Shown piece after piece: positions 14,379 through 35,522 of a DNA stretch of 35,522 nt (its first letter is position 1; each line of letters starts with the position of its first letter). A model generated the notes under the pieces. The model was not told the DNA's origin. It ran no database searches and was given only the letters and a program-made list of their open reading frames with translations. The position numbers and the translations under genes were made by a program. Source of the DNA: Syntrophorhabdaceae bacterium (GTDB lineage Bacteria; Desulfobacterota; Syntrophorhabdia; Syntrophorhabdales; Syntrophorhabdaceae); contig DATKMQ010000173.1 of NCBI GenBank assembly GCA_035541755.1, positions 1 through 35,522 on the forward strand, written 5' to 3'.

Positions 14379-14437
14379 GGATGCCACCTCACTCTCTCAT
14401 GCTTTTATACACCGGCCGTCAAAACAGATGTATGGGT

Positions 14438-14469: not shown

Positions 14470-14502
14470 GAAGTTTTTCAGGATACAATACGGCGAAAAG
14501 CC

Positions 14503-14534: not shown

Positions 14535-14535
14535 G

Positions 14536-15626: not shown

Positions 15627-15935
15627 TCAGCGCGTTTCAATAAAAACTGAATATGCCTCCATAAACGTGGGAAATCCGGTAGTCTGGATGATGAGGAGCA
15701 GAGTATGCAGGATCTCCTCGTCCGTCGCCCCAGCTTCGCGCGCCTTGCCGATGTGTGTCTCGAGGGCAATCCTATGGTTACTCGCCCCTGAGATAGCAAC
15801 CTTCATGAGCCATCTGGTCTTCTCGGACAGCGGGCCCGACTTTTCGTGGATTTGTCTTCCCAGGGCCTCATGGGCCCTATAAATCGCCGGAAACTCCTTT
15901 TTGAACTTTCTAAAAGCATCGTGCACATCTTTCAT
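15627..15935 (-). CDS. Carboxymuconolactone decarboxylase (AhpD-like) family protein
   Basis: This all-helical protein of 102 residues has the CMD fold: HDAFRKFKKEFPAIYRAHEALG, then SEKTRWLMKVAISGASNHRIALETHIGKA and GATDEEILHTLLLIIQTTG. The usual redox CxxC of AhpD is absent; S-x-x-N-H stands in its place, so peroxidase activity is doubtful. ATG 15935 is preceded by AAGGAGACA, so the longer frame beginning at 16019 is not used. It lies at the far end of the minus-strand island, 85 bp after the 382-residue gene, and is convergent with exbD. Confidence 0.85.
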   Translation of the reverse strand: MKDVHDAFRKFKKEFPAIYRAHEALGRQIHEKSGPLSEKTRWLMKVAISGASNHRIALETHIGKAREAGATDEEILHTLLLIIQTTGFPTFMEAYSVFIETR

Positions 15936-16019
15936 GGAATGTCTCCTTTTAGTCGGTTTTACAGCAAGTATAGCCCACAATTTCTTTCTGTCAATATTGT
16001 ACTCTCCATGACAACCCAT

Positions 16020-17168
16020 TTATCGTGGTTTGTCCTCACGATGAATAACGGCCATGGTGCCCTGGTTGTGCATGTTGCGGGAAAAGCACTCCACTGAAAG
16101 GTCAGCGCCAGCTACCATGTGCATGAACATGCTCTTATTTCCTACTGCAATACTTCTGCCAGGAAAGATCCTCCCGAAGGTGCCCTCCGGAATCGATTTG
16201 AAGAGCCCGGAGAGCGGATAGTCCGTGGTGCTTTCTTTTTTGTCCAGGTATTTGTACCCCGATCCCGTGGGATAATCGAGAAAACGGTGCTCACCCGTGG
16301 TTATGGTCAGGTATTGGGCCTCTCCCGGCTCGTAGTAGTACCATTCTGTGCCGTTGCGACACGGCGAATGAGACCACAGAAAGTCATGCAAACCAACGCC
16401 TTCAAGCACGATGAGGGCCATATTCCGAGTTGCAAGGCCTTGTTCCAGCGCCCCGAAAATACCGGTAATGGCTTGGATGCTGTGGCCCGGTGCATGGAGG
16501 GGGACATCGAAATTGAAGGCCGGTATTCGCGCCGGCGTCCTCATGGCGCCGGCTGTGGTCTTGAAGGCGTACCCCTCGCGGGCAAGCATGAGGTATTCCG
16601 GTACTTGTGACGCCTCCTGAGCGGATCCGTCAAAAAGACGCACTACTTCGTCTCGATGAACTATCTTCTGTATGTGAGGATGCCCTCGCAAGATCTTCAT
16701 GTCCTCATCGCTTGGACCATAGAGGCCGGCGTACCGCGCCGACCAGTGCGTGCACACGGCAAGGCCGTCTAGCGCTGTTGCATCGATAAAGCCCGAAAGC
16801 GGTATCATGTCGCCCATTCCGACTACAATGGCGGAGAAACCGGATATGCTGAGAAACCGCTCAACTTCCAGAAACGCATCGGCCATCATTTTCGCCCGGT
16901 CTTCTTTGGTCATGGGTGTGTATCTGCCGGAAAAATACTGTGCCGCGTAAGTGAGAAAAACCAAACGTGGGTTATAGCGGCCAATCAGATCAAGGCCTGT
17001 ATCAGTTACCCAGCGGTTGCTGCCAGGGTCCATATCACCCGGATAGGGGTGTCTCTGCAACACGCCCCCTACCATCTCGACAAGAGCCCCCGCTGCCTTG
17101 ACCTCATCGCCTGTCCGAAGGTCGAAGGTATTCTGCCATCCCCTGGCATCCACAATCGCCGTACTCAT
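16020..17168 (-). CDS. Conserved protein of unknown function coupled to a radical SAM gene
   Basis: This is a soluble protein of 382 residues that I cannot place in a family. Features include a start VDARGWQNTFDLRTGDEV, a central VVGMGDMIPLSGFIDATALD, a His-rich segment RIPAFNFDVPLHAPGHSIQ, then VLEGVGLHDFLWSHSPC and a C-terminal VAGADLSVECFSRNMHNQG. Several conserved-looking His, Asp and Cys residues suggest an enzyme with a metal or phosphate site, but no reaction is claimed. No signal peptide is present. Its ATG overlaps the stop of the radical SAM gene by 4 nt, so the pair is translated together and the protein may be its substrate-processing partner. Confidence 0.75.
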   Translation of the reverse strand: MSTAIVDARGWQNTFDLRTGDEVKAAGALVEMVGGVLQRHPYPGDMDPGSNRWVTDTGLDLIGRYNPRLVFLTYAAQYFSGRYTPMTKEDRAKMMADAFLEVERFLSISGFSAIVVGMGDMIPLSGFIDATALDGLAVCTHWSARYAGLYGPSDEDMKILRGHPHIQKIVHRDEVVRLFDGSAQEASQVPEYLMLAREGYAFKTTAGAMRTPARIPAFNFDVPLHAPGHSIQAITGIFGALEQGLATRNMALIVLEGVGLHDFLWSHSPCRNGTEWYYYEPGEAQYLTITTGEHRFLDYPTGSGYKYLDKKESTTDYPLSGLFKSIPEGTFGRIFPGRSIAVGNKSMFMHMVAGADLSVECFSRNMHNQGTMAVIHREDKPR

Positions 17169-18172
17169 TGTCGCGCTCCATTGAAGTCATCACGAATTGT
17201 GCCGGTTAGGAGTTTAATCCCATGTCCGCACGTTGGACAGAGTTTTCCTTCGCCGTTTAAGCGCTTGAGTTTGTCACCACCGCAGCCCAGGCTGAACCGC
17301 TCTATGACCACGGTCCCGCAGGCGGGACACAGGGTATCCACCCATTCGGAGCCCACAAAGTTGTGAAAATAGATGTATGGTAGCCTTTTTCGCGCAGACT
17401 TAAGCGCTGCGTCTATGGCCCGAATGTCGGGATACTTATCACCCGTCATTTCGTCTTCTGGAAGAAGACGAAATACATGCCAGGGTATCTCCCTGTCGAC
17501 TTCCGAAAGAAAGTCCACTATGGTATCGATATCCCCGTCGTTTGCTCCCTCTATGATGGGCGTGGTCACCTCCACATGACGATCCCGTGCCAGTCGTCTG
17601 ATATTACGGAGCACGGGTTTGGTAAAGTTGATGCCTATATAGGTCTTGTTGAAATGGAAAGAGATCCCCTTGAGGCTAATGTTAAAAAATGAGAAGATCG
17701 ATGCCAGAAGCTCCGTTGATTCCACGGTCATGTAACCGTTGGTAAGACACCCCATGGGCAGACCGGAAGCCTTTGCCTCCTCCGCAAGATCCATGAGTGA
17801 AGGGATGGACACAGTAGGTTCATTGACGTTGAATACAATACTCGAACAGTTGAGCTTCTTCGCCATGTTCACCAATTCTCGGGGTGAGAGGTTATATAAG
17901 AGCTCCTGCTGAATCGCGGGATCTTCTTTTGCGACGAAGGCGTTCGAGCAGTATTTGCACCTGAAATTGCAACTTAAGGTGCCGATCGCTAGGCACCTGC
18001 TCCCAGGATACGCGTGATAGAACGGGATAGATTCGAGCCGTGATGCCCCGCAGGAGCTCCAGCGGTGAGGAAATCTCTCTTTGATGGCTCCTTCCGAGAC
18101 CGCATACATCCGACAAAAGCCCGTCTTGCTTTCGTTTAGCTCACATCGTCGTTCACAGTAACTGCAATGCAT
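17165..18172 (-). CDS. Radical SAM protein with extra Cys clusters (AmmeMemoRadiSam-like)
   Basis: This radical SAM enzyme has 335 residues. The [4Fe-4S] motif CxxxCxxC is C68-C72-C75 (SCNFRCKYC). An N-terminal cluster C3, C6, C10, C20 and a C-terminal pair of CxxC motifs (C282/C285 and C312/C315) could bind zinc or additional clusters. The layout resembles the pyruvate-formate-lyase-activase-like proteins of the AmmeMemoRadiSam group. It is coupled to the 382-residue unknown protein by a 4-nt overlap. The ribosome site is GAGAGG before ATG. The reaction is unknown; peptide or small-molecule modification connected with metal handling is possible. Confidence 0.88.
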   Translation of the reverse strand: MHCSYCERRCELNESKTGFCRMYAVSEGAIKERFPHRWSSCGASRLESIPFYHAYPGSRCLAIGTLSCNFRCKYCSNAFVAKEDPAIQQELLYNLSPRELVNMAKKLNCSSIVFNVNEPTVSIPSLMDLAEEAKASGLPMGCLTNGYMTVESTELLASIFSFFNISLKGISFHFNKTYIGINFTKPVLRNIRRLARDRHVEVTTPIIEGANDGDIDTIVDFLSEVDREIPWHVFRLLPEDEMTGDKYPDIRAIDAALKSARKRLPYIYFHNFVGSEWVDTLCPACGTVVIERFSLGCGGDKLKRLNGEGKLCPTCGHGIKLLTGTIRDDFNGARQ

Positions 18173-18340
18173 GGTTTACCTCTCCGCTGATGCTATCCGC
18201 CGGTTCACAGATTCGGCATAAGGGAGCGAATCCAACGATATAACGATTACCAGGAATGTTTTCTCCTTAGAGTCATCCGGACGGACTATCTGCACCATGG
18301 TCACCGTTCAATTCATTCCCTTTTTCTGCGTCACGCTCAT
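18173..18340 (-). other. Possible small ORF with an in-frame TGA upstream of the radical SAM gene
   Basis: One base after the flavodoxin stop an ATG (18340) opens a frame of ten codons ending at TGA (18310-18308). The same frame continues for 43 sense codons to TAA at 18178-18176, three bases before the radical SAM ATG. It could be read from the inner ATG at 18298 (40 residues: MVQIVRPDDSKEK and on). Alternatively the TGA might be read through or decode selenocysteine, or the stretch is simply spacer. Nothing in its sequence is recognisable. Confidence 0.25.
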
Positions 18341-18341
18341 C

Positions 18342-18896
18342 TTAATCCTGTACTAGCTGTCTGGCAAAACTCACCACCGGCTGTATCGCGATCCAGTCTG
18401 TCCAATCAAGTGGACTAAAAAATCTGGCCAGCATCTCCCTTGCTTTCTCGTCCTTTTTCAGCCACCAATCTATTTGAAGCCTTATTCTTGGTCCGCTCAT
18501 AAGAATCTTGTCGATGTAGCTCAGCTTACCGTAATTGAATGCGCCTCGAAGCGGATAGTATGTTACCTTCTTTCGTATATCCACGGGAAGACTGGCCCGG
18601 AACACTTTGTCTTGTCTTGGATCATTAGATGGAACTCCTGTAACAGCAAAGATTGCAAGTTTCTTTTCACATAGGATCTTCCAGTTACGCTTTACAAAAC
18701 TTATATGTTTTATCCTTCCCATATACACGGGAGATCCAAAGAGAACCGTTGAATAGTGCTTCAGAAAGGGCGGGTCAAATGCCGAGATTTCGAAGATGTC
18801 AGCCCCGACTTCTTCCGCTATCCATTGGGCGTATCGTTTCGTGCTTCCATATTTTGTCCCGTACAGTACAACTATTCTCTTGAGAGATTGTTCCAC
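18342..18896 (-). CDS. Flavodoxin-domain protein (HemG-like)
   Basis: This FMN-binding electron-transfer protein has 184 residues. The phosphate-binding loop is visible at the start as VVLYGTKYGSTKRYAQWIA, and the other flavin contacts fit VLFGSPVYMGRIKHISF and LAIFAVTG. It resembles the flavodoxin-like, HemG-type group more than short electron-carrier flavodoxins. The start is GTG with AAGGAAAGGGA upstream, 27 bp after the MoeA-like gene. It may supply electrons to the neighbouring radical SAM enzyme or reduce a metal or metal chelate (inference). Confidence 0.88.
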   Translation of the reverse strand: MEQSLKRIVVLYGTKYGSTKRYAQWIAEEVGADIFEISAFDPPFLKHYSTVLFGSPVYMGRIKHISFVKRNWKILCEKKLAIFAVTGVPSNDPRQDKVFRASLPVDIRKKVTYYPLRGAFNYGKLSYIDKILMSGPRIRLQIDWWLKKDEKAREMLARFFSPLDWTDWIAIQPVVSFARQLVQD

Positions 18897-18923
18897 TTTC
18901 TTGTCCCTTTCCTTAAGAATGAT

Positions 18924-20111
18924 TCATTCAAAGTAGATTATCTCCACAAACTCTCCTGCCTCCAGACCGGCCCGATCTTCCGGAATCATAATATATCCAT
19001 ACTTCCCCATTAAATTGGATTCGCCAAGCATCTTGATCGGCCTCGCTTTGCCGTCGTGAATGTTAACTTTTCGCACCCCTCGTACTCCGAGAGAAGCAGT
19101 TGCTCTCCCTATCAGTTGCGCCTGATGTCCGGTGCGGGATGACGGGGGATAATGACCGAGCTTTTTGACAACAGCGTCAACAAACATGAAAGCAGCGACG
19201 GCGCATGATTCGGTATAACCGGGAAGAAAGATTACCGGTATCGTCTTCTCCCCATTTCGTATAAGACCTGTGCCCATATGGTTTCCAGGGTGTAGGGCCA
19301 CACCATGAAAAAGTACCTCCCCCATTGACGATATCACCTGTTCCATGAGGTCTCTTTTACTCTTGGAGCTCCCGCCTATGGTGATAATGAGATCGTAATC
19401 GGTTCCGTCCATCAAAACCTCTTTGAGTTGTGTTTCGTCGTCGGGAACGATCTCGTGGAGCGTGGGGCAGCCGCCATACCGTTCAACAAGGAGACTACAC
19501 ATGAGTCCGTTCGTTTCGTAAACGAATCCCGGAGAAATCTGATCACCCCTTTTTACGCACTCATCACCGGTGGGTACGATCAAAACACGGGGTCTGTCGT
19601 ATACTTCGACATCGCCCACCCCCAGCTTGGCAAGCATGGCAATGTCAACAGGCTTCAGCTGCAGCCCCTCTTTATTTACACAGTCACCCCTGGCTAGTCC
19701 ACCACCCCGGGGCCAGATCCATTGATGTTTTGTTACTTCTTTGGAAACAAGAACACAGCCGTCCCTTTCCTTGGCGTCTTCAAGAGGGAGAAGCGCGTCG
19801 GCTCCTCCAGGCAACGCGCTCCCCGTGTGCGCCAGCACACAACAACCACTAGCGATGTGTTCATCTGTGGTTACGCGCAGCACCCTCTCGGAACCCTCCC
19901 CGCAGCCAACGGTATCAAGGGCTCGCAGAACATAACCGTCCAGAATACACTGATCATAATGCGGATAGTCCATAGGCGCAACAACATTCTTGGAGAGCAC
20001 CCTGTTGTCGGCATCCTCCAGAAGCACTGTCACTACGCGTTTCAGGGGTTCCACAGTCTCAAGAAGGGACGCGATCGCCTTATCAACGTTTGGGAGCATG
20101 CTATTTTTCAT
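18924..20111 (-). CDS. Divergent MoeA-like molybdopterin-binding protein
   Basis: This 395-residue protein has the MoeA domain order: an N-terminal MoeA domain with the D58 motif (QCILDGYVL in place of SAMDGYAV), a MoCF molybdopterin-binding domain (VLIVPTGDEC, then TIGGSSKSKRDLMEQ), and a C-terminal beta barrel (IIYFE end). Standard MoeA inserts Mo into molybdopterin. Here the usual PGKP segment is HPGNHM and LPGNPVS is LPGYTES, so residues near the active site differ. This suggests a paralogue with changed activity, perhaps metal binding or sensing. It sits 21 bp after a TonB receptor gene and before a flavodoxin, inside the metal-uptake island. Confidence 0.85.
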   Translation of the reverse strand: MKNSMLPNVDKAIASLLETVEPLKRVVTVLLEDADNRVLSKNVVAPMDYPHYDQCILDGYVLRALDTVGCGEGSERVLRVTTDEHIASGCCVLAHTGSALPGGADALLPLEDAKERDGCVLVSKEVTKHQWIWPRGGGLARGDCVNKEGLQLKPVDIAMLAKLGVGDVEVYDRPRVLIVPTGDECVKRGDQISPGFVYETNGLMCSLLVERYGGCPTLHEIVPDDETQLKEVLMDGTDYDLIITIGGSSKSKRDLMEQVISSMGEVLFHGVALHPGNHMGTGLIRNGEKTIPVIFLPGYTESCAVAAFMFVDAVVKKLGHYPPSSRTGHQAQLIGRATASLGVRGVRKVNIHDGKARPIKMLGESNLMGKYGYIMIPEDRAGLEAGEFVEIIYFE

Positions 20112-20132
20112 ATCACCCCACTCGAATTGGGA

Positions 20133-22274
20133 TCAAAAGTTGACGCTTACTACGCCCATAATCGTCCGGCCAGGGTTGGGATATACATATTCCTGGGCAA
20201 ATTGCCTATCCAGGAGATTTTCAACCGTAAGAGCAGTCTTTAGTATGGTTCTTTCCGTTAGTTTCCAATCGCGCCATATCTTTAGATCGACCGTCTGGTA
20301 GGAGTCCATACTGTAAAAAGGAAGTCTGGTATTTTCATTGTCGTAGAATTGGTTGCCCACGTATCGGTATATGAGGCTTCCACTCATGAGCCTGGGGTTC
20401 ATGTATTGTATTCCCGCGTTGCCCATGAAACTGGGGGTATTGGCCACCTGGTTTCCTTGATTGGCGGGATCCTCTATGATAAGAGATTTATTCAGGGTCA
20501 GATTCATGACAGCTGAAAATTGATCCGTGATGATCTGATTTATCTGAGTTTCAAGGCCATAGATCTCCACCTTGCCTATGTTTTGGATCTTCAGAAGCGA
20601 TACGCCGGGGACAGTCGGGCTGGGACTATAGACGCCTGAAAACATATTTTCGATCTTCCCGTAATATGTGGTCATGTTGAAAGAAGTGCCTGTTTTTTTC
20701 AGCTGCCCTTCCAATCCAAGATCCACCATCCAGGTCTTTTCCGGTTTCAAGTCAGGATTCGCTACACGCCACGTGGTCCCGGTGGTAGTATTTTGAAAGT
20801 ACCACGTGGGGAGGCCGGGATAGAATGCCGTACCGGCAGATGATCTAATAGCGAACTGATCGTTGATCCGATATTTTGCTCCTCCCCGATAGGTAGTATA
20901 GTTACTGGAAGAGTCCTTCAGATAGTTCGGTGTTGAAGCGCTATCGTAGATATCGTGGAATTTCCAATTATCATACCGAGCACCCATCAGCAGAGAGAGC
21001 TTTTTGTCAAGGAATAAAGCTTGGTCCTGGAGGTAAAAGGCCTCTTGGTCCGTTTTATAATCGGTCCCGGAAACGGCTGCCCCAGTGGTCCACGTGTTTG
21101 TATCTGATCCAATCCTTTCTCTGCTGTAGAAGGTTCCAGCTGTTAAAATGTTGTTCTTCCCCAGGTAAAAATCGTCCTGGAGTTCCAGGGGCGTCCTCGT
21201 CACTTTCGATTCTTGCGAGTAACGCTTCCTCCAATCAAATACAAGCTTCGAACCGACTTGAGAAATGCCGTAATCGGTCTTGGCCGGTCTATCCCAATCC
21301 TGGTATCCTCCGGAAAAAGTGATCTTCATTATGTTACTAACAGGAAGTTGAAACCGGACACTTCCGAGGCCCTGTTTCCCGCTGTCCAAAGGAATCAGAT
21401 TGGGCTGGCCGCCGTTGATGTTGAGAAGGGCGTAGTTATATGCAATCGTGAAGCTTGCTCCGTCCCTTCCAATCCAGCCAGCCTTTCCCGACAGATATGT
21501 ACTGCTATAATCCGCGCTGTCCACCGTCGCAGTCGTGAGGGTCGAAGGACTCTTTGTATATATCCTCCGCGTATTGTCGATAGGAATATTGCTATATCCG
21601 TCCGAATAGTCGCCGGCATAGGAGAGATAATAGTGGAACTGGTTATCTCCCTGTCTAAATGCCCCACCCGTGCTGGCGTAAGGGCGCTTCGTATTGTTGC
21701 TGCCGTATCCGACGGAAAGTGTAGACCCCATATCTTTCTTACCCTGCCTCGTAATGATATTCACAACGCCGCCTGATGCGTTGGCGCCATAAAGGGCGGA
21801 TGAGGGACCCATGACAACGTCGATTCTCTCTATATCATTCCTGTTAATGGTATTGGTAAACGATATCGAGGATCCAACAGGCATGCCGTCGATGAGATAG
21901 ACGGTCCTCGCACTAAAATCGCCTGTTCCCCGGAGATTTACCCAGGCCGGATTCTTATTTGGCGCCTGGCCGACAAATACACCAGGTAAATCCTGAATAA
22001 GCTGACCATAGTTTGGGATGATATAGTCGGGCTGAGATTCTATGTTTTCACGATCAACCGTGTACGTGGTGAATGGAGAGTATTCTGCCGGGGCATTGGT
22101 CTTCGTAGCGGTTACGACTACTTCAGGAAGAACAATGCCCTTTTCGTGCGTCTTACTCTCCTCGGATGAAGCCGTCGGTCCTCCCGGCGAAGCGTTTGCT
22201 TTTTCCGCTGCCGATCCTGCTACGGGGGAGAACAATAGTGCAATTAACAACAGTAAGCAGAAAATCCGTGACAT
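20133..22274 (-). CDS. TonB-dependent outer-membrane receptor (third in transcription order)
   Basis: This is an outer-membrane receptor of 713 residues. A signal peptide (about residues 1-22) is followed by a TonB-box-like segment IVLPEVVVTATK (residues 47-58) and the plug domain (IPNYGQLIQDLPGVFVG, DGMPVGSSISFTNTINRNDI, SALYGANASGGVVNIITR). The beta-barrel closes with GVVSVNF, ending in Phe as outer-membrane proteins do. AGAGGAGG precedes the ATG. The receptor takes up chelated metal or another large ligand, powered by TonB-ExbBD. The next gene downstream is the MoeA-like gene, 21 bp away, which links it to molybdenum chemistry by position. Confidence 0.93.
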   Translation of the reverse strand: MSRIFCLLLLIALLFSPVAGSAAEKANASPGGPTASSEESKTHEKGIVLPEVVVTATKTNAPAEYSPFTTYTVDRENIESQPDYIIPNYGQLIQDLPGVFVGQAPNKNPAWVNLRGTGDFSARTVYLIDGMPVGSSISFTNTINRNDIERIDVVMGPSSALYGANASGGVVNIITRQGKKDMGSTLSVGYGSNNTKRPYASTGGAFRQGDNQFHYYLSYAGDYSDGYSNIPIDNTRRIYTKSPSTLTTATVDSADYSSTYLSGKAGWIGRDGASFTIAYNYALLNINGGQPNLIPLDSGKQGLGSVRFQLPVSNIMKITFSGGYQDWDRPAKTDYGISQVGSKLVFDWRKRYSQESKVTRTPLELQDDFYLGKNNILTAGTFYSRERIGSDTNTWTTGAAVSGTDYKTDQEAFYLQDQALFLDKKLSLLMGARYDNWKFHDIYDSASTPNYLKDSSSNYTTYRGGAKYRINDQFAIRSSAGTAFYPGLPTWYFQNTTTGTTWRVANPDLKPEKTWMVDLGLEGQLKKTGTSFNMTTYYGKIENMFSGVYSPSPTVPGVSLLKIQNIGKVEIYGLETQINQIITDQFSAVMNLTLNKSLIIEDPANQGNQVANTPSFMGNAGIQYMNPRLMSGSLIYRYVGNQFYDNENTRLPFYSMDSYQTVDLKIWRDWKLTERTILKTALTVENLLDRQFAQEYVYPNPGRTIMGVVSVNF

Positions 22275-22369
22275 AGTGGTTTCCTCCTCTTGAGAATAAT
22301 AGAATGTGGTGGAACAGGTGCTCGCATTCGTTGATATTCCTTTCTAATACATATCGATGGCACTATTAC

Positions 22370-23446
22370 TTACGGAAACAGGGCCCTTTTCATCGTCTCT
22401 TCCGGTACATTTATTCCAAGGAAGAGCCGGTAGAACTTGCAGGCCTCCCCTATTATGTCTGTGTGGTGCCGTTCAGGGTAGAGACGCCACATGAGCCACT
22501 TGATGCCCAAGAGCCTCATAAATGAGGGCGGTCTATCGAACCAATTGAGAAGCATTGTCGGGGATAGATAAACCCTGCCTGTTTTGACCGCCCTGACATT
22601 CTGCCACCGCTCGTCTTTGAAGACATTCCCGTAGAAAGCAGGCTCTGTCGCTATAATTACCTCGGGATCATAGCGAAGCACTTGCTCCAACGAGACGGGC
22701 TCCCTGCCCCTCACTTTAAACCTGCCATCACTGCACCGATGGACGTTTGTTGCACCTGAAAGCGAGATAAGCTCTGCATGAATGGACGTATCACATTCCG
22801 TAAAAAGCCCGCTCATTCCTTCCGCATAATAGACGCGGGGTCGCTCGACCTGAGGGATAAGGTCTCTTGTTCGGGCCGTCTCTTTAAGTACCCGATCACC
22901 GTAATCGGCAAGGGTGCGCGCCCGTTTTTCACGTCCAAGGAGATTCCCAAGGAAGAGAAAGGCGGCAGGGTAATCGCTCGTCTTATCGATCTTCACGTAC
23001 GCCACAGGGATGCCGAGTTTGGCGAGCAGTTTCTCTGATGGCACATTGAGTTCCATGTTACCCCACATTTCAGCGACTACTACATCGGGTTTTGCTTTGA
23101 GAAGGGCTTCCATGGTTATTGTAGCGCTCTGCCCGAAAAATCCCCCAACCACGGGGAGTTTTTCCACCTCAGGAGACAAATATTTCTTCTGTTCTGTTGT
23201 AAAAGGTGCGCTTATTCCTGCAAGGAGAGTGGGATCGATTGCGTAGATGAGATACATTACGATTGGCCAGTCCCCGCAGACTTTTGTGATCCTGTCTGGC
23301 ACCACGACTTTTCGGCCCGCCATATCCGTTATCTCACGGGCACACGAAGCCGTATAAGAAGAACCAACAAAGAGAACAAAGAGAACAAAGAAAAATGAGG
23401 CCTTGAGACGCCGGGATGGCCGAGTGGCGAGGCGGTTATTTCTCAT
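22370..23446 (-). CDS. ABC transporter periplasmic binding protein, iron-complex/metal type (SBP1)
   Basis: This is a periplasmic binding protein of the FepB/BtuF-like class (358 residues). A signal peptide ends near residue 36 (YTASCA/REI). The mature part starts REITDMAGRKVVVPDRI and contains the YYAEG segment, then E217-C218, H223, H236 and C238 (NVHRC), a Cys/His/Glu set shared with the two other binding proteins of the window. The C-terminus has NWFDRPPSFMRLLGIKWL. The gene overlaps the end of the methyltransferase gene upstream by 11 nt. No permease or ATPase follows, so it probably shares the single transporter encoded upstream. Confidence 0.9.
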   Translation of the reverse strand: MRNNRLATRPSRRLKASFFFVLFVLFVGSSYTASCAREITDMAGRKVVVPDRITKVCGDWPIVMYLIYAIDPTLLAGISAPFTTEQKKYLSPEVEKLPVVGGFFGQSATITMEALLKAKPDVVVAEMWGNMELNVPSEKLLAKLGIPVAYVKIDKTSDYPAAFLFLGNLLGREKRARTLADYGDRVLKETARTRDLIPQVERPRVYYAEGMSGLFTECDTSIHAELISLSGATNVHRCSDGRFKVRGREPVSLEQVLRYDPEVIIATEPAFYGNVFKDERWQNVRAVKTGRVYLSPTMLLNWFDRPPSFMRLLGIKWLMWRLYPERHHTDIIGEACKFYRLFLGINVPEETMKRALFP

Positions 23447-24290: not shown

Positions 24291-24324
24291 CAATCATTTC
24301 AGCTCACAGGCTTATGCCGTCTCC

Positions 24325-24370: not shown

Positions 24371-24411
24371 GCACGCCGCACCGGTTGCTCCTAACGATTG
24401 TCAAATCCCGC

Positions 24412-27358: not shown

Positions 27359-27368
27359 GTACGCCCCC

Positions 27369-28427
27369 TCATTGCTGATATATCACCTGCCTTATGTCCT
27401 GTTCAGAAAGACTCGTCCCGAGAAAGAGCCGATAGAAGTCACGGGCCTCTTTGACGATGTCGATCCGGTAGTCATTCGGATAGAGACAATTCATTAACCA
27501 TTTAAGACCAAGGATACGCATGAACGACGGAGGGCGGTCGAACCAGTTAAAGGGGTGTCTGGGGATGAGATAGACGCGCCCTTCCTTCACCGCCTTGATA
27601 TTCTGCCATACCGGGCTCTTTTCCCTGACGACCTTATCGTAGAAAACCTTTTCCTGCGCTACGATGACATCGGGGTTATAAAGCATGATCTGCTCCATTG
27701 AGACCTTCTCAAACCCCACGTGACTCGATGTGTGGCAGCGATGGACATTCCTGTCGCCTGCGAGCTGGAGCAGTTCCACATGGATCGAGTCATTGCATTC
27801 CGTGCTGAGGCCGTCCACACCTTCAGCGTAGTAGACCGTAGGTCTTTTTTCGGCGGGGATCTTGCTTACCGTGTTCTTCACATCATCGAGTGTTTTTCGG
27901 AAATAGCCGCTTAACTGTTTGGTCCGGTCTTCTCTCTTGAGCAGTCTACCGAGGAACAAATAGACCTCGGGGTAGTCGGAAAGACTCTCGGCCACGGCGT
28001 AGACAAAGGGTATGTTGAGCTTCTTTATCGATTCTTCCGATCTTTCGTTAATCGCGGATTTGTTTGCCGACCACATGATCAACAAATCCGGTTTTGCCTT
28101 GAGCAGTATTTCAACATTGGCGGCCTGACCCTGACCCCCGAGAGATCCGATAACCGGCAGATTGGCCACCTCTTTCGGGAAGTATTTTTTGTCCTCATCT
28201 TTTATGGAGAGATTGAGCCCCGGCAACATGGACGGGTCCACAGAGTACATGATGAAGGAGCCATAGGGCGAGGGCGCATATACCTTCCCGATAGAATCCG
28301 GTAAGGTCACCGTGCGGCCGGCCATATCGACAACCTCCCGCGCGTTCGCGGTAGACAGTGAAGTAAGAGCCGGTACAAGGAGTGCTATTATTAGTGCAAT
28401 GATACCAAAGTTTCTCTGTTTCAACAT
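27369..28427 (-). CDS. ABC transporter periplasmic binding protein, metal type (SBP3)
   Basis: This is a 352-residue binding protein, paralogous to SBP1 and SBP2. A clear signal peptide covers residues 1-29 (IIALIIALLVPALTSLSTANA), and the mature part starts REVVDMAGRTVTLPDSI. The shared set E210-C211, H216, E218 and NVHRC (H229, C231) is present. GAGGAGG is well placed before ATG 28427. It is separated from SBP2 by only 10 bp, indicating a tandem duplication. Either binding protein could serve the same transporter with different ligands. Confidence 0.92.
   Translation of the reverse strand: MLKQRNFGIIALIIALLVPALTSLSTANAREVVDMAGRTVTLPDSIGKVYAPSPYGSFIMYSVDPSMLPGLNLSIKDEDKKYFPKEVANLPVIGSLGGQGQAANVEILLKAKPDLLIMWSANKSAINERSEESIKKLNIPFVYAVAESLSDYPEVYLFLGRLLKREDRTKQLSGYFRKTLDDVKNTVSKIPAEKRPTVYYAEGVDGLSTECNDSIHVELLQLAGDRNVHRCHTSSHVGFEKVSMEQIMLYNPDVIVAQEKVFYDKVVREKSPVWQNIKAVKEGRVYLIPRHPFNWFDRPPSFMRILGLKWLMNCLYPNDYRIDIVKEARDFYRLFLGTSLSEQDIRQVIYQQ
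27517..27548. repeat. 32-bp perfect repeat shared by the SBP2 and SBP3 genes (copy 2)
   Basis: This is identical to 26349-26380. It lies at the same place in the coding sequence of the neighbouring paralogue, and the surrounding sequence is similar but not identical. Confidence 0.75.
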
Positions 28428-28457
28428 TGATGCTACCTCCTCATCAGTTCAGCGTTT

Positions 28458-29066
28458 TCATCTCCACATTTCAATCCACAGGCCCACTTCACTTCTTGTT
28501 ACGGAGCAATTCTTGATACCGGCCTGTTGCAGTGCTTTGCGGTATTCAGTTTCATGATTTCTACTTCTCTTCATAGGACCGGACCACGCTTTATTGATTT
28601 CCCTCATCTTTGCCATGACCTGCGCCTGGATTTCCGGTGAGCCCAAACCCCCTCCGATGAAAGCCCGTCCGCCCGGAGCGAGAACCCGGTATATCTCATG
28701 GAATGCCTTTGCCTTGTCCTCCCAGAAGAATACCGAGCCCCTGCTTACGACAAGATCGATAGATTGGTCATTGACGGGAATTTCATGCACATCACCGCGG
28801 AGAACGGACATCCTTGCTTTGAAGTGGGATGCGGCGATGTTTTGATTTGCGATATCGATCATTTCCTCCGAACTGTCGAGGAGCAGTATGTCAAGGTCTG
28901 TAATGCGTGCGAGGGCCAGGGAAAGATAGCCGCCGCCCGATCCCGCATCGAGACAGACGCCATTTGTGATGCCCGTTCTTTCTGCTATCTGTTGCGCGAT
29001 GAAGACATAAACAGGAGCGAACGCCTCCCGAGCGATCCTGTCGAATTGTTGGACGTCCATCTTCAT
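28458..29066 (-). CDS. Class I SAM-dependent methyltransferase (MT2)
   Basis: This is a methyltransferase of about 202 residues of the UbiE/Methyltransf_11 type. Motif I is VCLDAGSGGGYLSLALARI near residues 37-55, followed by the acidic LLLDSSEEMIDIA. The post-motif segments LRGDVHEIPVNDQSIDLVV and VLAPGGRAFIGGG are typical. It lies 30 bp upstream of SBP3 and 72 bp downstream of the second TonB receptor gene. It belongs to a different subfamily from the two paralogous methyltransferases of the island. The substrate is unknown. Confidence 0.88.
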   Translation of the reverse strand: MKMDVQQFDRIAREAFAPVYVFIAQQIAERTGITNGVCLDAGSGGGYLSLALARITDLDILLLDSSEEMIDIANQNIAASHFKARMSVLRGDVHEIPVNDQSIDLVVSRGSVFFWEDKAKAFHEIYRVLAPGGRAFIGGGLGSPEIQAQVMAKMREINKAWSGPMKRSRNHETEYRKALQQAGIKNCSVTRSEVGLWIEMWR

Positions 29067-29138
29067 ATTCTTATTAGTCCCATCTAATCCTCGTCGCCGA
29101 GAAGTTCTTCACGACGATCTCTCATTTTCCTTTGGATG

Positions 29139-31250
29139 TTAGAAAAAGCTGTAGGCAAGCTGCACCCCGACTTGAAGACCGGGGTCTCTGTATGTGCCCG
29201 TCACGTATCGGGTGGCATAGTGGGTGTTACCCAGGTTTCGTCCGTATAGCGTGATCCTTGTGTCCCTGTTTAAGAGTTTGCAATTGTACGCTACGTTGGC
29301 GTCATAGCGCTGATAGCCGCCCAGTTCATAGTATATGGTCCCTATGGGGGAAGTGCTCTGGCCGTGGGTATCCACAGTCCGCGCGCTGAAGTTGGCGTCG
29401 AAATTCTTGTATTTGTAGCTGATGACGCCGCTCGCAAAATTGTGACCCATACTCCTATTGGTGGAGAGGTCGTTGGTTGTAACGTAAGTGTACTGGATGC
29501 GGTAAATGAGGGTGCCGTACGTAGAGGACTTGAACACCTCTCCGGATGAGCCGAATTCTGCTCCCCTGGTTATTATGTTCGTTGTGGTCACATAATCGAT
29601 CTCGTCTCCTGTGGACGGGTCGATAAAGGAGGATTGACCGCCGACAGTTGTACTCGTCTTCTGGTTTGCCGTGTCGTAGTAGTAAATGGTGAGCCACGGA
29701 TTCAGGAAAGAGTACAGGTTTGCGAGAACTCCGCCTTCGTATCGGGACCGCTTTTCAACGGGCAGGACCGTCTTGGAAACGCTGTCCTGATATCCGGATT
29801 GATAATTCTCCGTATAGGCATATCGTCCGGTGAGCGTGAGCTTTGGGATGAGTTTGAATGCGGTGCCCACGGTGTAGGCGTATACCGGTCTCGACCATTC
29901 GTTCACCGGCCTATATGTTACAGGACTATCGTAATAGAGTTCCTTGTCCACTCTGATACCTGCGTCTACGGTCATTCTGTCATTCAACATATGGTACTCA
30001 TCCTGGGCGAAGAGGCCGAACAAGTCCTCGTCGCTTCTACTTGCTGAACTTGGAGCGTTTGCGGCAGGGAAAACCTGGTCGTTCCACTGGCCTCCGGCCT
30101 TCAGAATATTGTTGTGAGAAGTGAGGACGTGTCTCAAGCTCAAGCTCTGGCTGCGGCTGTCCTGATCTGAAAAGGTCACTTTTTGACCCTTTCCGTCAGG
30201 GAAATTGGTCGTCATACTCGTAACGATGATGCCGTTGTACGCATAACTGAAGTTCGTCGTATGTGTATCGTTCCAGTGTTTGCTCAAGTTGGCGGCAAAC
30301 ATGTTTGAGATGAGAGGGTCTATCTTCCACTTGCTCGTGTCGAGGGTCCCGACCGGCCCGGTTCCGCCAGGCTGCAGGATTAGACCACGCTCGAATTCTC
30401 GCATGCCGCGGCTTGCGTAGTAGAGTACATCGGCTTCCAGGTCAGACCGTGTATATCCGCCCCGAAGAAGGGCGGATTCGTTGCGGCTTGCGTTGTACCA
30501 GTTCGATTTCCCGAGCGTGTTGTTGTAGGTGCCGGCTACCCGGTAATCAAAATTGCCGATTTTAGACCCCTGGTAGAGGTGCTCCTTTTCGGTATGAAAG
30601 CTTCCGTAGCTTGCCACCGTGCCGCCTTCAAGTTTTGCAGCCCGTTTGGTCTTGATAATGATGAAACCCTGATTCGAGTCGCCGGTGGTTGAGCCAAAGT
30701 TGGTGAGAGGGCCGAGCGTGAGTGCCGTGGAATCCCGCATGACTGTTACAGACTCGATGGCATCCACAGGAAGGGTCTGAAGTATGCGATCAATCTGCGA
30801 AACGTAGACACCGTCCAGGATGATCCCGAAATTGCCTGTACCCCTCATATTGGAGAACTCCATGTGCTGTCTTCCCTGAAAGGTCACTTCCATGCCGGGC
30901 AGTTGTTCTATCACATCCCAGACGGTTTCTGGGTGCAGGGCCTCGATCTGTTCGCTCGTGATGGTGTTGGTCTGAAGCTTGCTGCTTTCGGCCACCGCGT
31001 ATGGGCTTGTCACCGGCTCTGCAATCTTCTTACCGGTTACTGTAATCTCTTCAAGGTTATGCGAACTCTTGGGAAGGGTCTTCTGCGGGGTCTCAGCCTC
31101 AGCTTTTTGCGCCGCTTGATCTCCCGATGTTTTTTGAGTGCTTTGTGGGTCCTTTTGTTCTGTCTTTTCCTGAGCAAACGCCATTTGAGATATGAGAAAG
31201 ATCCCGAGTATGAGTACAGAAAATAATGTTCTTCTGAAAATGCATTTCAT
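29139..31250 (-). CDS. TonB-dependent outer-membrane receptor (second in transcription order)
   Basis: This is an outer-membrane receptor of 703 residues. A signal peptide ends at AFA (residues 24-26). A Gln/Lys/Glu-rich linker leads to the TonB box LEEITVTGKK (residues 66-75), then the plug domain (ALHPETVWDVIEQLPGMEV, MRGTGNFGIILDGVYVSQID) and a 22-strand-type barrel ending in YSFF. It sits between two methyltransferase genes, showing integration into the island rather than a separate iron-uptake locus. The ligand is not readable from sequence. It differs from the first receptor in its linker and plug, so the ligands may differ. Confidence 0.93.
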   Translation of the reverse strand: MKCIFRRTLFSVLILGIFLISQMAFAQEKTEQKDPQSTQKTSGDQAAQKAEAETPQKTLPKSSHNLEEITVTGKKIAEPVTSPYAVAESSKLQTNTITSEQIEALHPETVWDVIEQLPGMEVTFQGRQHMEFSNMRGTGNFGIILDGVYVSQIDRILQTLPVDAIESVTVMRDSTALTLGPLTNFGSTTGDSNQGFIIIKTKRAAKLEGGTVASYGSFHTEKEHLYQGSKIGNFDYRVAGTYNNTLGKSNWYNASRNESALLRGGYTRSDLEADVLYYASRGMREFERGLILQPGGTGPVGTLDTSKWKIDPLISNMFAANLSKHWNDTHTTNFSYAYNGIIVTSMTTNFPDGKGQKVTFSDQDSRSQSLSLRHVLTSHNNILKAGGQWNDQVFPAANAPSSASRSDEDLFGLFAQDEYHMLNDRMTVDAGIRVDKELYYDSPVTYRPVNEWSRPVYAYTVGTAFKLIPKLTLTGRYAYTENYQSGYQDSVSKTVLPVEKRSRYEGGVLANLYSFLNPWLTIYYYDTANQKTSTTVGGQSSFIDPSTGDEIDYVTTTNIITRGAEFGSSGEVFKSSTYGTLIYRIQYTYVTTNDLSTNRSMGHNFASGVISYKYKNFDANFSARTVDTHGQSTSPIGTIYYELGGYQRYDANVAYNCKLLNRDTRITLYGRNLGNTHYATRYVTGTYRDPGLQVGVQLAYSFF

Positions 31251-31282
31251 TGCCGCCTTCCTCCTTATGAAATTTTGCGAAA

Positions 31283-32104
31283 TTAACTATGGCTATCCTT
31301 GTTCCACCAGATTACCGCCCAGGTGATTGGCTTTTCGTAATTGAGCATCCACCATCCCGCATCGTAAACCAGGTGTTTGTCCAGATACTCGTTGAGCTTC
31401 TCTGCTTCTTCAGGGGTCATATCGCCGAGCATCCATTTCATGGATTCAACAACCTGATGGCGTCTCTTGTATGCCTTGTGGTTCCTCTCGGTTATGAAAT
31501 CGATATTCGCCCTCACCCCCATCTGATAGAGGAGATTGTACGTGTATATATAGTCAGGGCCGATGTTCAGCTCTCTGCCTATGGCCTCGAATACGCGCCG
31601 GTCATGGGGCCCGTCATCCACGATCGTAGAAATATAGACGCGTCTTTTTGCCATGCTGCTCAGCTTCAGGATGGCTGAACGGAGGTCATCCACCACAAGA
31701 GAACGCGAAGCGATCGCCACATCGTGGAGACCTATACCTGCTCTGCCCCAATCATCTGCCCAGCTCGCATTGATGGTCCTGATATTTGAAATTGCTGACC
31801 TGTGGCACTGCTCCCTGAGGATACGGATCATAGCCTCGGAAAAATCTACGGCTGTGATCGCCTTTACACGTTTTGCGAAAGGAATGGCGAGCGTTCCTGC
31901 CCCGCAGGCCATATCAAAGATAGTCCAGTTGCGTTTGGGATTAACTATTTTCAAGAATGCTTCGGCGTACGCAGTTTTCGCTACATGCTCGGCAAAAGAA
32001 GGCGCCCGTTTATCCCAGGATGCGGAGTCGCGGGTAGGATAAGGGCGTGTTGCTTTCTTTGCCTTCCACACTTCATTCCAATCTATGGTCTGAATATCGA
32101 TCAT
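31283..32104 (-). CDS. Class I SAM-dependent methyltransferase (MT1)
   Basis: This is a methyltransferase of 273 residues with motif I WTIFDMACGAGTLAIPFAKR and ITAVDFSEAMIRIL. The N-terminal WNEVWKAKKATRPYPTRDSA and the C-terminal WWMLNYEKPITWAVIWWNK are family-specific and match, in style, the paralogue at 23.4-24.3 kb. AGGAGA precedes ATG 32104. It lies 32 bp after the FmdE-family gene and 32 bp before a TonB receptor gene, so it is co-transcribed. A role in modifying a metal ligand or tetrapyrrole-like molecule is an inference from the neighbours. Confidence 0.88.
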   Translation of the reverse strand: MIDIQTIDWNEVWKAKKATRPYPTRDSASWDKRAPSFAEHVAKTAYAEAFLKIVNPKRNWTIFDMACGAGTLAIPFAKRVKAITAVDFSEAMIRILREQCHRSAISNIRTINASWADDWGRAGIGLHDVAIASRSLVVDDLRSAILKLSSMAKRRVYISTIVDDGPHDRRVFEAIGRELNIGPDYIYTYNLLYQMGVRANIDFITERNHKAYKRRHQVVESMKWMLGDMTPEEAEKLNEYLDKHLVYDAGWWMLNYEKPITWAVIWWNKDSHS

Positions 32105-32136
32105 CTATCTCCTGGTATCGCCTGCGGCGGACTTTT

Positions 32137-32748
32137 TTACACCTTTGGTCTCGCTTGAGAACCAAGCGGCTCATAGTAATAGCTGTTGCTCGCGCAGGGT
32201 TTACAGAGGGTATTTCCATCTTGGATAACTTCTCTCATGTCCATGATCCGCTCTCCACAGGAGGCGCATGTGACCACATGGAGCGGCTTACCCGGTAAAT
32301 CTTGAGGCTTCAGATCCACGGAAACCTCCACGACATTAAAGAGGTCTTCGGCCGGCATCGTGAGATATGCGTCCGTATGAGGACTTTGCTCGATCTCTTC
32401 GCGGGTCTGCTTCTTGTTGCCGTCTTTATTCTTTACGTTCACCCGGACCGCTTTGCCGGTCTTCAGGTTTACAAAGGTAGCGGCCATCTTGCCGTAGTCG
32501 AGGATCTTCATGGTTCTTTTGCCTGGATGACATCCCGTTGTGGCAAGCAAGGCATCGGTCACACACCTGTCCGTCTCGGCAAAGACAATAAGATCTTTTC
32601 TGTCTTTTCCTTTGGGATCGTCAATGCCAATGGCTTTGAGCCCTATGATTGACATACGAGTGCCCAGGGTAATTCCGGCACAGAGGTCTCCGTGAAATTG
32701 TTTTGCTCGCTCCAGACACATTTCCAAATCCAGTTTATCCCTATCCAT
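32137..32748 (-). CDS. FmdE-family metal-binding protein
   Basis: This 203-residue protein belongs to the FmdE family, named from the operon of the molybdenum/tungsten formylmethanofuran dehydrogenase of methanogens. The N-terminal alpha+beta core has the motif FHGDLCAGITLGTRMS with H19 and C23, plus C62 and C73 (TDRCVTDALLATTGCHPG). The C-terminal treble-clef zinc finger is C161-x2-C164 and C182-x2-C185. Bacterial members are not enzymes of methanogenesis; a metal-handling role is suspected. AAAGGAG precedes ATG 32748. It lies 34 bp after TonB. Its presence links the uptake island to Mo/W metabolism. Confidence 0.93.
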   Translation of the reverse strand: MDRDKLDLEMCLERAKQFHGDLCAGITLGTRMSIIGLKAIGIDDPKGKDRKDLIVFAETDRCVTDALLATTGCHPGKRTMKILDYGKMAATFVNLKTGKAVRVNVKNKDGNKKQTREEIEQSPHTDAYLTMPAEDLFNVVEVSVDLKPQDLPGKPLHVVTCASCGERIMDMREVIQDGNTLCKPCASNSYYYEPLGSQARPKV

Positions 32749-32782
32749 AGGAGCATCTCCTTTGCATTTGATTGATCTATCT

Positions 32783-33583
32783 CTACTCCAACTTGTACGT
32801 AACAGGCATGATAAGTTCCGCCTTCATGGGCGGCCTTGGGAAAGGCTGCACCTCCTTGATCACCGCCAGCACGTTCTTATCGAGCACCTCGTGCCCCGAG
32901 CTGACAATGATTCTCGAGTTCTCAACGCTGCCATTTTCCTTAATGAGAAAGGAGACCACAACCTTTCCCTTCCATCCCATCCTCTTTGCTATCTGAGGGT
33001 AGGTAAGATGTTTCATAATGAGATCCCTGATGTAGGCGTAATGTTCCGCGAGATATTGCTCGATGAGGAGATTTGCGTCACCCGAACCGGTGCCGTGGCC
33101 TCTTCCCGTGCCACCTCCGCTGCCTCCCTCGCCGCCCGAGCCCACGCCGAATCCGCCACCACCCGGTCCTCCCGAGCCGCCTCCGATTGAACCTGTCCCC
33201 GTGGGCGAACCGGCCGGCACGGTAGTTGCCGTCACAACATTTTCCACGGATGGCGCATCCAATGGCGCAGTTTTGGGTTGAGCGTTGTCTGCCTTATTCC
33301 TGTCGATGCTTACGGCTTGCTCGGTTAGGACTTGAGCGGCCTTCGCGGCCATTATCCTGTGAGCCACGGGCGATGGTTGCCCCTTCTTTATCTGAAAGCC
33401 CACATCCTTTATGCCGCTGCCGCCATTGCCGCCCGGCATTTCATCGCTCAAAAAGACAACCACAGGGGCATCGAGTTTTTTGTCAAACTGGCCGGCCAAC
33501 ACGATCGCGGCGCTTAGTACCACAAAATGGACGAGAAGCGATAGAACGAACTCTTTGCGTATTGATCCAATCTTTTTGTTCAT
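32783..33583 (-). CDS. tonB: TonB energy-transducing protein with a Gly-rich linker
   Basis: This is an energy transducer of 266 residues. It has an N-terminal membrane helix (VLSLLVHFVVLSAAIVLAG, residues 13-31), a linker and a C-terminal TonB domain (about residues 175-266: GWKGKVVVSFLIKENGSVEN, NVLAVIKEVQPFPRPP, VTYKLE end). The usual Pro/Glu/Lys spacer is replaced by a Gly/Ser-rich stretch (residues 129-168). The start overlaps the stop of the DUF364 gene by 4 nt. It would connect ExbBD (14.5-15.6 kb, divergent from modA) with the receptors of this island. Confidence 0.92.
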   Translation of the reverse strand: MNKKIGSIRKEFVLSLLVHFVVLSAAIVLAGQFDKKLDAPVVVFLSDEMPGGNGGSGIKDVGFQIKKGQPSPVAHRIMAAKAAQVLTEQAVSIDRNKADNAQPKTAPLDAPSVENVVTATTVPAGSPTGTGSIGGGSGGPGGGGFGVGSGGEGGSGGGTGRGHGTGSGDANLLIEQYLAEHYAYIRDLIMKHLTYPQIAKRMGWKGKVVVSFLIKENGSVENSRIIVSSGHEVLDKNVLAVIKEVQPFPRPPMKAELIMPVTYKLE

Positions 33584-34416
33584 GAATTAGCTTGATCGTT
33601 CCTTTCATCCCGGATGATATTGATCTTTCGCAAACAGGAAGCTTGAAAGAGGTGGTACGCCCCTCCTCCTTGTGCAAGGATATCGAGCATCTTGTCGACG
33701 GCGGTCACCATGGCCCCGCTCACGATATGCACATGCCTTTGGAATAGCGCATCGGGCAGGAAGCTGACCGTGGGTCCTGTGACGATCACCCGTGCGTCGG
33801 GACTCGTATAGCCGAGGAGTTCATCGATAGTTCCGTTAGCCACCGATGCACCGGTAATGATCACCGTATCGCAGCGTGGAATTATTTCTCCGGCTTTCTT
33901 CGACGGTACGTAGTATCGTATTTCATCCTTATGGAGAGACTGCCTCTTCTTTTCGATCACGTAAAGCCCGATCCCATCAATAATCTTGAGTCGCGACAGA
34001 ATAGGACTAATAGCCCCCACCATGGCTATTCTTTTTACGGATTTGAGGTTGACGACATCAAGAACGTCGCGGTTGTTTGCCATAATGTATCGATTCTTGG
34101 TAAAGAAACGAGAAGAAAGGGCGTTCAATACCACGAGACGTACTGTGTTGAGAAGCGGCGAGTCATCTGATGTATTCAGTATTTCAGAAACAGATGCGCC
34201 CCGGAGGTTTCCAGGGGCGCCAAGCTGCAGAGGCATATTGCTACAACAGGGATTCTTGTGTATGTCCGAGACAGGCGTGTATGAGACGCCCCCGGACCCG
34301 CTCGAAAGCTTCACCCCTGTAAAGAATATGCCCACAACCAATCCCTCTATGACTATGTGGTTCAGGGCTTTGCCATAAAGCCTTTGAAGGATATCTGCGG
34401 TCTCATCTACAATCAT
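33580..34416 (-). CDS. DUF364/DUF4213 putative heavy-metal chelation protein
   Basis: This 278-residue protein has the two-domain layout of the family: an N-terminal enolase-like DUF4213 domain (VEGLVVGIFFTGVKLSSG-type start, then GGVSYTPVSDI and a CC pair near residues 57-58) and a C-terminal Rossmann-like DUF364 domain (CDTVIITGASVANGTIDELL, VIVTGPTVSFLPDALFQR, VSGAMVTAVDKML). Family structures have been described as possible heavy-metal chelating proteins; the activity is not known. It is coupled to TonB by a 4-nt overlap and lies 9 bp after a TonB receptor gene. A role in releasing or re-chelating the imported metal is plausible. Confidence 0.9.
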   Translation of the reverse strand: MIVDETADILQRLYGKALNHIVIEGLVVGIFFTGVKLSSGSGGVSYTPVSDIHKNPCCSNMPLQLGAPGNLRGASVSEILNTSDDSPLLNTVRLVVLNALSSRFFTKNRYIMANNRDVLDVVNLKSVKRIAMVGAISPILSRLKIIDGIGLYVIEKKRQSLHKDEIRYYVPSKKAGEIIPRCDTVIITGASVANGTIDELLGYTSPDARVIVTGPTVSFLPDALFQRHVHIVSGAMVTAVDKMLDILAQGGGAYHLFQASCLRKINIIRDERNDQANS

Positions 34417-34425
34417 GACGATTCT

Positions 34426-35522
34426 TCAGAAGCTATATCTCACGCCTGCGAAATAAGTTCTTCCCGGTTCCGGGTAGCCGACCGCATACTCGTAATACCG
34501 ATCAAAAGCGTTATTGACGCCGGCTTCAACCATCAATCCTTCTCGTATGATGTAGGACGCTTTCATGTTGACAAGTGCAAATGCCCCTGTATTGTAGATT
34601 CCATCAGACGTTGTGCCGGTATCCGAGAGATACTCGACGCTAACTAACGTGCTTAATCCCTTGAGGGGGGTTGTGTATTTCACATAGCTAAAGATCTTGT
34701 GCACCGGAACGCTGGTCAGCCTGATATATGTGGGGCTGTACTGGTTGATAGGCGTCTCATTGTTCCTGTCAAGATACGTATAGTTGAGCCCTCCTTCGAT
34801 GTCTTTTGTGACAGATACCACTCCCTCTATTTCAATACCGTATTGCTGCACCTCCCCGATATTCTGATTCTGCGTTATTTTGGGAGCGACCGTGATGGAC
34901 TGAATGGCATTGGTAATGTCATTGTGAAAAACCGCGGTCTTAAACCGCACCTTTTTCAGGAACATATCCTCGTAACCAATCTCGTAGTTAACCGATTTTT
35001 CAGGCGCCAGACTGGGGTTGGGCAGTTTTGTTCCGAAACCTCCTGAAAATTTTTCTTTCATGGAAGGGAACCTTGTCTTCTTTTCGACGCTGGCATGGAG
35101 CTTGCCCGTATCGGAAACCAGATAGAAGAGCCCTGCTTGAGGGTTCCATGACGAGGTGGAGCCGACCGCATAGTCAAACCAACCACCAGGTACATTCTTG
35201 GGATCCCATTCGCGGGCACGAAGCCCCTCCGCTTTGTCGTGGCTAACCCCGATAATTGAGTAAAGACTTTTGGTGATATCAATGGTGTCTTCCATGCCCC
35301 AGGAGCTAATCAGATCATCGGATCTCTGCCAGGGTTCGGGCAAATTGTCGCTGCCAACCGTGTTACGCTCATTGTGGGTATCTCTTTTGTAATGGAAAGC
35401 TGTCTTAATGTTGTTTCTTGGAAGAAGGGTGGTACCCGCTTCGATGGAGCCGCCTATTGTCCAGTCGTCGTATAAGCTCCTTGCTCCAAAGCTTGTATCG
35501 TATACGCTGTAGTCTTTATTGG
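34426..35522 (-). CDS. TonB-dependent outer-membrane receptor, C-terminal part (cut by window end)
   Basis: The reading frame stays open to the window edge at 35522, so the N-terminal signal, TonB box and plug lie outside; about 365 residues of barrel are visible. Barrel features include DWTIGGSIEAGTTLLPRNNI near the top, FPSMKEKFSGGFGTKLPNPS, YEIGYEDMFLKKVRFKTAVF and the closing RTYFAGVRYSF ending in Phe. A TTG inside the frame (35343) could mimic a start but is not one. It is the first visible gene of the minus-strand island and precedes DUF364 by 9 bp. Confidence 0.92.
   Translation of the reverse strand, partial: NKDYSVYDTSFGARSLYDDWTIGGSIEAGTTLLPRNNIKTAFHYKRDTHNERNTVGSDNLPEPWQRSDDLISSWGMEDTIDITKSLYSIIGVSHDKAEGLRAREWDPKNVPGGWFDYAVGSTSSWNPQAGLFYLVSDTGKLHASVEKKTRFPSMKEKFSGGFGTKLPNPSLAPEKSVNYEIGYEDMFLKKVRFKTAVFHNDITNAIQSITVAPKITQNQNIGEVQQYGIEIEGVVSVTKDIEGGLNYTYLDRNNETPINQYSPTYIRLTSVPVHKIFSYVKYTTPLKGLSTLVSVEYLSDTGTTSDGIYNTGAFALVNMKASYIIREGLMVEAGVNNAFDRYYEYAVGYPEPGRTYFAGVRYSF

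Follow-up and report, generated by a model that had tools for sequence, protein, structure and literature searches.

A putative ModE-controlled, TonB-dependent island for molybdenum and/or tungsten acquisition in a Syntrophorhabdaceae genome

The DNA considered here (the window, 35,522 nucleotides) is the whole of contig C173 in the assembly of an uncultured Syntrophorhabdaceae bacterium (3.85 Mb, 96% complete), and about 20 kb of it, before the flanks described below are added, form a gene island that very probably encodes a ModE-controlled, TonB-dependent acquisition system of the FecCD type for molybdenum (Mo) and/or tungsten (W). The Mo/W identity, which the original prediction had also favoured, is strongly supported by the operators of the island, by ModE boxes in 79 related loci, by the repeated occurrence of ModE and ModABC genes beside the system and by the homology of its binding proteins to MolA. 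Nickel and cobalt, which had been allowed as alternatives, are not supported as cargo, NikR boxes being at chance level, and neither is iron.

The published Escherichia coli ModE consensus is ATCGNTATATA-N6-TATATANCGAT (PMC545781), and the pattern searched for E. coli-type boxes was CGNTATATA-N6-TATATANCG. Allowing at most one mismatch, the only site in the whole genome is that at 14512-14535 of the window. A lineage-specific operator, CGYTATTCCC-N4-GTATATAA, is matched without mismatch at exactly three sites in the genome, compared with none for the reversed pattern; two precede the gene for TonB-dependent receptor C (TBDR_C) on contig C71, at the island promoter, and one precedes modA (14440-14461). 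The island-promoter operator is called ModE-type because the modABC promoters carry it too, both in this genome and in genome G004, where it lies next to modE and no island genes were found nearby. A fourth near-operator (C3:28195, two mismatches) is situated in the 3' portion of a flavoprotein gene that has no relation to the island, and is apparently a chance match. In the region 14300-14700 no consensus sigma-70 promoter could be called above chance.

As the lineage-specific pattern was derived in part from the same sites, the independent test was to look for the E. coli consensus in the 79 loci, which come from named genomes. When 84,980 species genomes were scanned, relatives of the binding proteins turned up in 360 places; the 79 loci are the best distinct ones among these, and their neighbourhoods were scanned with the window proteins. 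With up to two mismatches these loci contain 32 E. coli-type ModE boxes where Markov resamples lead one to expect 0.35 (about 90-fold), and 22 of the 32 lie upstream of island genes, in regions that make up 22.5% of the bases (p about 3e-8). Counts at up to three mismatches were set aside because the reversed control was enriched too (35 against 4.25 in the loci, 16 against 5 in the genome itself). The Desulfovibrio-type ModE consensus is only weakly present, and boxes for Fur, NikR and Zur occur in the loci at about the frequency expected by chance. The operon MT1-PBP1-TBDR_A-MoeA-Flav5 (MT, methyltransferase; PBP, periplasmic binding protein) stands alone in L035 and L098 with ModE-like boxes of its own, whereas in the window the corresponding genes sit inside a larger operon and have none.

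The regulator itself is also linked to the system. In this genome a ModE-type gene lies on C71, divergent from TBDR_C, and of the 13 relatives carrying the system, 6 have a ModE gene no more than 15 kb away from it, an association with a chance probability of about 5e-9 in a calculation that ignores relatedness. NCBIfam models further identified a full-length ModE with a Mop domain in Sulfurospirillum cavolei and confirmed ModA and ModD in other neighbourhoods of related loci. Near the system in seven loci (L046, L048, L075, L079, L093, L104 and L110) there is an XRE-type regulator fused to a PBP_like domain (PF12727), possibly a second Mo sensor.

The three binding proteins share the motif NWFDRPPSFMR and two invariant cysteines, and a profile of the family reaches Haemophilus influenzae MolA (3psa) with an E value of 6e-29. 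When the AlphaFold model of PBP3 (predicted local distance difference test, pLDDT, 84.8) was compared with known structures, the top matches were 4pag, 4ovk and 4hn9, followed by MolA (Z 25.3, root-mean-square deviation (rmsd) 3.6, 298 residues aligned), which we take to be the best match whose ligand is known; Helicobacter pylori CeuE with nickel ranked after it (Z 22.8). MolA binds molybdate and tungstate (PMC4031551). The island holds the set of a MolBC-A-type importer, namely a FecCD permease, an ATPase and a MolA-related binding protein. A MolA-like fold by itself leaves the ligand unsettled; fold and operators together give a good probability of a Mo or W ligand.

Several observations weigh against this assignment. 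The alignment places the two invariant cysteines in the island family and not in MolA, so that ligand binding may differ, and on this ground the form bound may not be the free oxyanion. The Syntrophorhabdus-type ModE consists of the DNA-binding domain only, without a TOBE domain, and does not explain how Mo is sensed. The island-promoter operator has four mismatches to the E. coli consensus and partly overlaps a likely -10 element. Finally, relatedness among the loci means that the counts given above overstate their independence.

Domain searches of the window proteins found all of the genes that had been named, on one strand as predicted: three TonB receptors, TonB, three Peripla_BP_2 proteins, FecCD, the ATPase, three S-adenosylmethionine (SAM) methyltransferases, FmdE, DUF364, a MoeA-like protein and the radical SAM pair. 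To these are added a flavodoxin and a carboxymuconolactone decarboxylase (CMD) family protein (Table 1). The start of the ATPase gene, placed at 25491, is corrected to about 25203. True four-nucleotide overlaps are confined to some of the joints; elsewhere there are gaps of about 0-170 nucleotides. The predicted extent of 15627-35522 proved too short on both sides. To the left, ModABC and ExbB/ExbD adjoin the island and move its boundary to 11979. To the right TBDR_C is split between contigs, and C71, taken here as the continuation of the window on sequence grounds, opens with the N-terminal 314 residues that TBDR_C lacks in the window, on the minus strand (L125:1-944), followed by the two operators and the divergent ModE-type gene (L125:1173-1496); about 20 codons are absent at the join.

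Table 1. Genes and operators of the island and its left flank (window coordinates)
Feature	Position	Strand	Remarks
ModABC molybdate/tungstate ABC transporter	11979..14387	-	ModC 11979-12713, ModB 12713-13378, ModA 13560-14387; TIGR01256, TIGR02141 above cut-off; operator upstream
ModE-type operator, modABC promoter, CGTTATTCCCTGTGGTATATAA	14440..14461	-	one of three perfect genome matches
E. coli-type ModE box, GGTTATATAGTGTAGTATATAACG	14512..14535	.	just 5' of exbB, between modA and exbB; 1 mismatch
ExbB/TolQ-like and ExbD/TolR-like energising pair	14536..15611	+	ExbB 14536-15210, ExbD 15207-15611; Pfam MotA_ExbB, ExbD
CMD (AhpD-like) family protein	15627..16019	-	PF02627; adjoins UNK382 in L022/L023 too
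UNK382, radical SAM partner	16020..17168	-	no Pfam or NCBIfam match
Radical SAM protein, distant from AmmeMemoRadiSam	17165..18172	-	PF04055; TIGR04337 below cut-off
Flavodoxin-like protein	18342..18896	-	PF12724
Divergent MoeA-family protein	18924..20111	-	PF03453 + PF00994
TonB-dependent receptor A (TBDR_A)	20133..22274	-	PF00593 + PF07715
Periplasmic binding protein 1 (PBP1, MolA-like)	22370..23446	-	PF01497
SAM methyltransferase 1 (MT1)	23436..24293	-	PF13649
ABC transporter ATPase	24412..25203	-	PF00005; start about 25203, inferred from domain position
FecCD-type permease	25191..26207	-	PF01032
Periplasmic binding protein 2 (PBP2, MolA-like)	26204..27358	-	PF01497
Periplasmic binding protein 3 (PBP3, MolA-like)	27369..28427	-	PF01497
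SAM methyltransferase 2 (MT2)	28458..29066	-	PF08241
TonB-dependent receptor B (TBDR_B)	29139..31250	-	PF07715
SAM methyltransferase 3 (MT3)	31283..32104	-	PF13649
FmdE with C-terminal zinc finger	32137..32748	-	PF02663 + PF01258
TonB	32783..33583	-	PF03544
DUF364/DUF4213 protein	33580..34416	-	PF04016 + PF13938
TBDR_C, C-terminal 364 residues, cut by contig end	34426..35522	-	N-terminal 314 residues on C71

Beyond the left boundary, a photolyase and PNPOx-like pair (window 9919-11750) repeatedly adjoins modABC or the island end, also in L027, L031-L034 and L130, as if at a conserved insertion site. The TctC, IclR, altronate-dehydratase-like and enolase-superfamily genes at 176-6041 form an ordinary cluster for sugar-acid catabolism.

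A search of other genomes for the neighbourhood, as the original prediction had proposed, found the same gene set in many of them, which argues that the gene order is not random. Relatives of the binding proteins are present in 13 of 60 related genomes. Carriers of the system number in the hundreds and are mostly anaerobic or sulfur-metabolising bacteria, those named including Syntrophorhabdus, Syntrophus, Geobacter/Trichlorobacter, Desulfobulbus, Desulfosarcina, Sulfurospirillum, Sulfurovum and Sulfuricurvum; the loci closest to the window are Syntrophorhabdus-like. Carriers available in culture include Sulfurospirillum diekertiae and S. cavolei, Desulfobulbus elongatus and Trichlorobacter thiogenes. 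FecCD was counted in 62 of the 79 loci, the ATPase in 63, MT3 in 44, TonB in 39, FmdE in 38 and DUF364 in 28. Three modules occur alone or joined, and in the window all three are joined: TBDR_C-DUF364-TonB-FmdE-MT3-(TBDR_B-MT2-PBP3)-FecCD-ATPase, MT1-PBP1-TBDR_A-MoeA-flavodoxin, and radical SAM-UNK382. In 44 genomes of the class MT3 and the binding protein, present in 12 and 13 respectively, are shared by 10 (p about 6e-6). Radical SAM protein and UNK382 form a single frame of 1026 residues in genomes G243 and G265, and since these fusion frames adjoin FecCD, ATPase, TonB and ExbBD, the pair goes with transport also in cases where the transporter belongs to a different branch. One TGA is reported within the aligned stretch of the fusion (loci L137, L138). 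Among Campylobacterota-type carriers a luciferase-like flavin monooxygenase gene is found near the system in 14 loci (L049-L053, L055-L057, L059, L061, L063, L086, L089 and L113). A truncated-globin gene is near the system in 11 loci.

A demand for Mo/W exists in this bacterium, as its genome holds five AOR-family and seven molybdopterin oxidoreductase genes. Of the catalytic-site residues of E. coli MoeA, the MoeA-like protein of the island keeps the counterparts of D59, T100, E188, D228, D259 and P298 and has lost those of D142, K275, K279 and P301. Because of these losses, and because three other MoeA genes, with canonical copies among them, are present elsewhere in the genome, it is probably not an ordinary molybdotransferase. 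The radical SAM protein scores 136.3 bits against TIGR04337, below the cut-off of 220, and so is only distantly related to AmmeMemoRadiSam. UNK382 has no sequence relative in the PDB, and its model (pLDDT 70.6) gives a weak alkaline-phosphatase-superfamily fold match to 1ei6 (Z 8.4, rmsd 4.8, 212 residues aligned). According to an earlier proposal, DUF364 acts on chelators resembling flavins or pterins, and its neighbours include Mo/W transporters (PMC2954201). FmdE genes are mostly found beside metal transporters, and FmdE is reportedly fused to UPF0066 in some genomes (PMC2954224). An open reading frame resembling UPF0066/TrmO by eye (L023:565-1044) adjoins the CMD gene. On contig C81 (G000:C81:12201-15814) a second FmdE of this genome lies near a molybdopterin oxidoreductase frame of 999 residues.

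If the island is a ModE-controlled Mo/W system, scarcity of either metal would cause the ModE-type repressor to leave its operators, judging from the behaviour of known ModE, and the island, ExbBD and ModABC would all be expressed. TonB and ExbBD would then power the three outer-membrane receptors in capturing the scarce metal. Molybdate is usually thought to cross the outer membrane simply through pores, and since porins would pass it in free form, the receptors would most likely have as their cargo, in place of the free anion, a ligand-bound species or a thio- or poly-oxoanion. The MolA-like binding proteins would pass this cargo to the FecCD permease and ATPase, and oxyanion that becomes free in the periplasm could enter through ModABC. 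The ligand may then be stripped or modified in the cytoplasm by FmdE, DUF364, the methyltransferases, the MoeA-like protein, flavodoxin and radical SAM/UNK382, and the same proteins may deliver the metal to molybdopterin.

A variant of this scheme, differing in cargo and in the role of the enzymes, is plain high-affinity import of free molybdate or tungstate across the outer membrane, with the enzymes working in cofactor biosynthesis instead of removing a ligand. It is a possible though less probable explanation: free oxyanions are what MolA binds (PMC4031551), genes of the MoeA and FmdE families go with Mo/W enzymes, and the FmdE on C81 has a molybdopterin oxidoreductase nearby, but a free oxyanion should not require three receptors and seven or more enzyme genes, the binding proteins differ from MolA, and canonical MoeA copies are present elsewhere in the genome. 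In another reading the receptors could import an intact organic complex of Mo or W, which might be a cofactor of the pterin type or a dedicated metallophore, and the cytoplasmic cassette (SAM methyltransferases, radical SAM/UNK382, divergent MoeA, FmdE and DUF364) would salvage or dismantle it. We consider such a cofactor- or ligand-salvage pathway unlikely.

Uptake of other metals is far less probable. For nickel or cobalt (corrinoid) there is the precedent of TonB/FecCD/CeuE-type nickel uptake in Helicobacter, CeuE is also a structural relative of the PBP3 model, and the nearest named permease to the FecCD protein is BtuC; against these stand the chance level of NikR boxes and the neighbouring ModABC and ModE, which make this explanation very improbable. 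It is equally doubtful that the island serves iron-siderophore or heme uptake with its Mo-type genes incidental, for although FecCD, Peripla_BP_2 and TonB receptors are classical parts of iron uptake, and receptors A and C score to siderophore and heme models (below cut-off), ModE boxes and ModE genes were found instead of Fur boxes (2 in the 79 loci against 0.9 expected, at up to three mismatches), by which the original prediction would have recognised an iron system. No Fur or NikR homologue was found near the system by phmmer with single E. coli Fur and NikR queries, which is a weak test.

Nitrogen fixation, formate/CO2 chemistry and anaerobic metabolism are limited by Mo and W, metals that sulfidic water holds in the form of thio- or organic complexes. 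If the assignment to Mo/W acquisition is true, an outer-membrane route switched by ModE and equipped with its own enzymes would explain the access of anaerobes to this complexed pool, and it would supply a role for FmdE and DUF364, two long-known gene families that have lacked a clear one. A full-text literature search, with most subscription journals outside its coverage, found no description of TonB-dependent Mo/W uptake. In the way it works the island would appear to resemble both a TonB-dependent metallophore system and MolBC-A coupled to a ModE regulon, a combination undescribed in the searchable literature. FmdE (PF02663) and DUF364 (PF04016) belong to the same families as those studied earlier, with their known proximity to metal transporters; the TonB/ModE system around them was not described in that work. 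Helicobacter nickel uptake (FrpB4, CeuE, FecDE) applies the same TonB and FecCD logic to a non-iron trace metal, and has in CeuE a fold match to PBP3, but regulator and operator in the island are of the Mo type and not NikR. With H. influenzae MolBC-A (HI1470-1472) the island shares a FecCD-type (type II) importer and a homologous binding protein that in MolBC-A binds molybdate and tungstate (PMC4031551). The two invariant cysteines distinguish the island binding proteins from MolA. To our knowledge MolBC-A, unlike the island, has no TonB receptor or enzyme cassette. The likeness to a ModE regulon with ModABC lies in the ModE box, the ModE gene and the ModABC genes beside the island, to which the island adds TonB receptors, TonB/ExbBD and a large set of enzymes.

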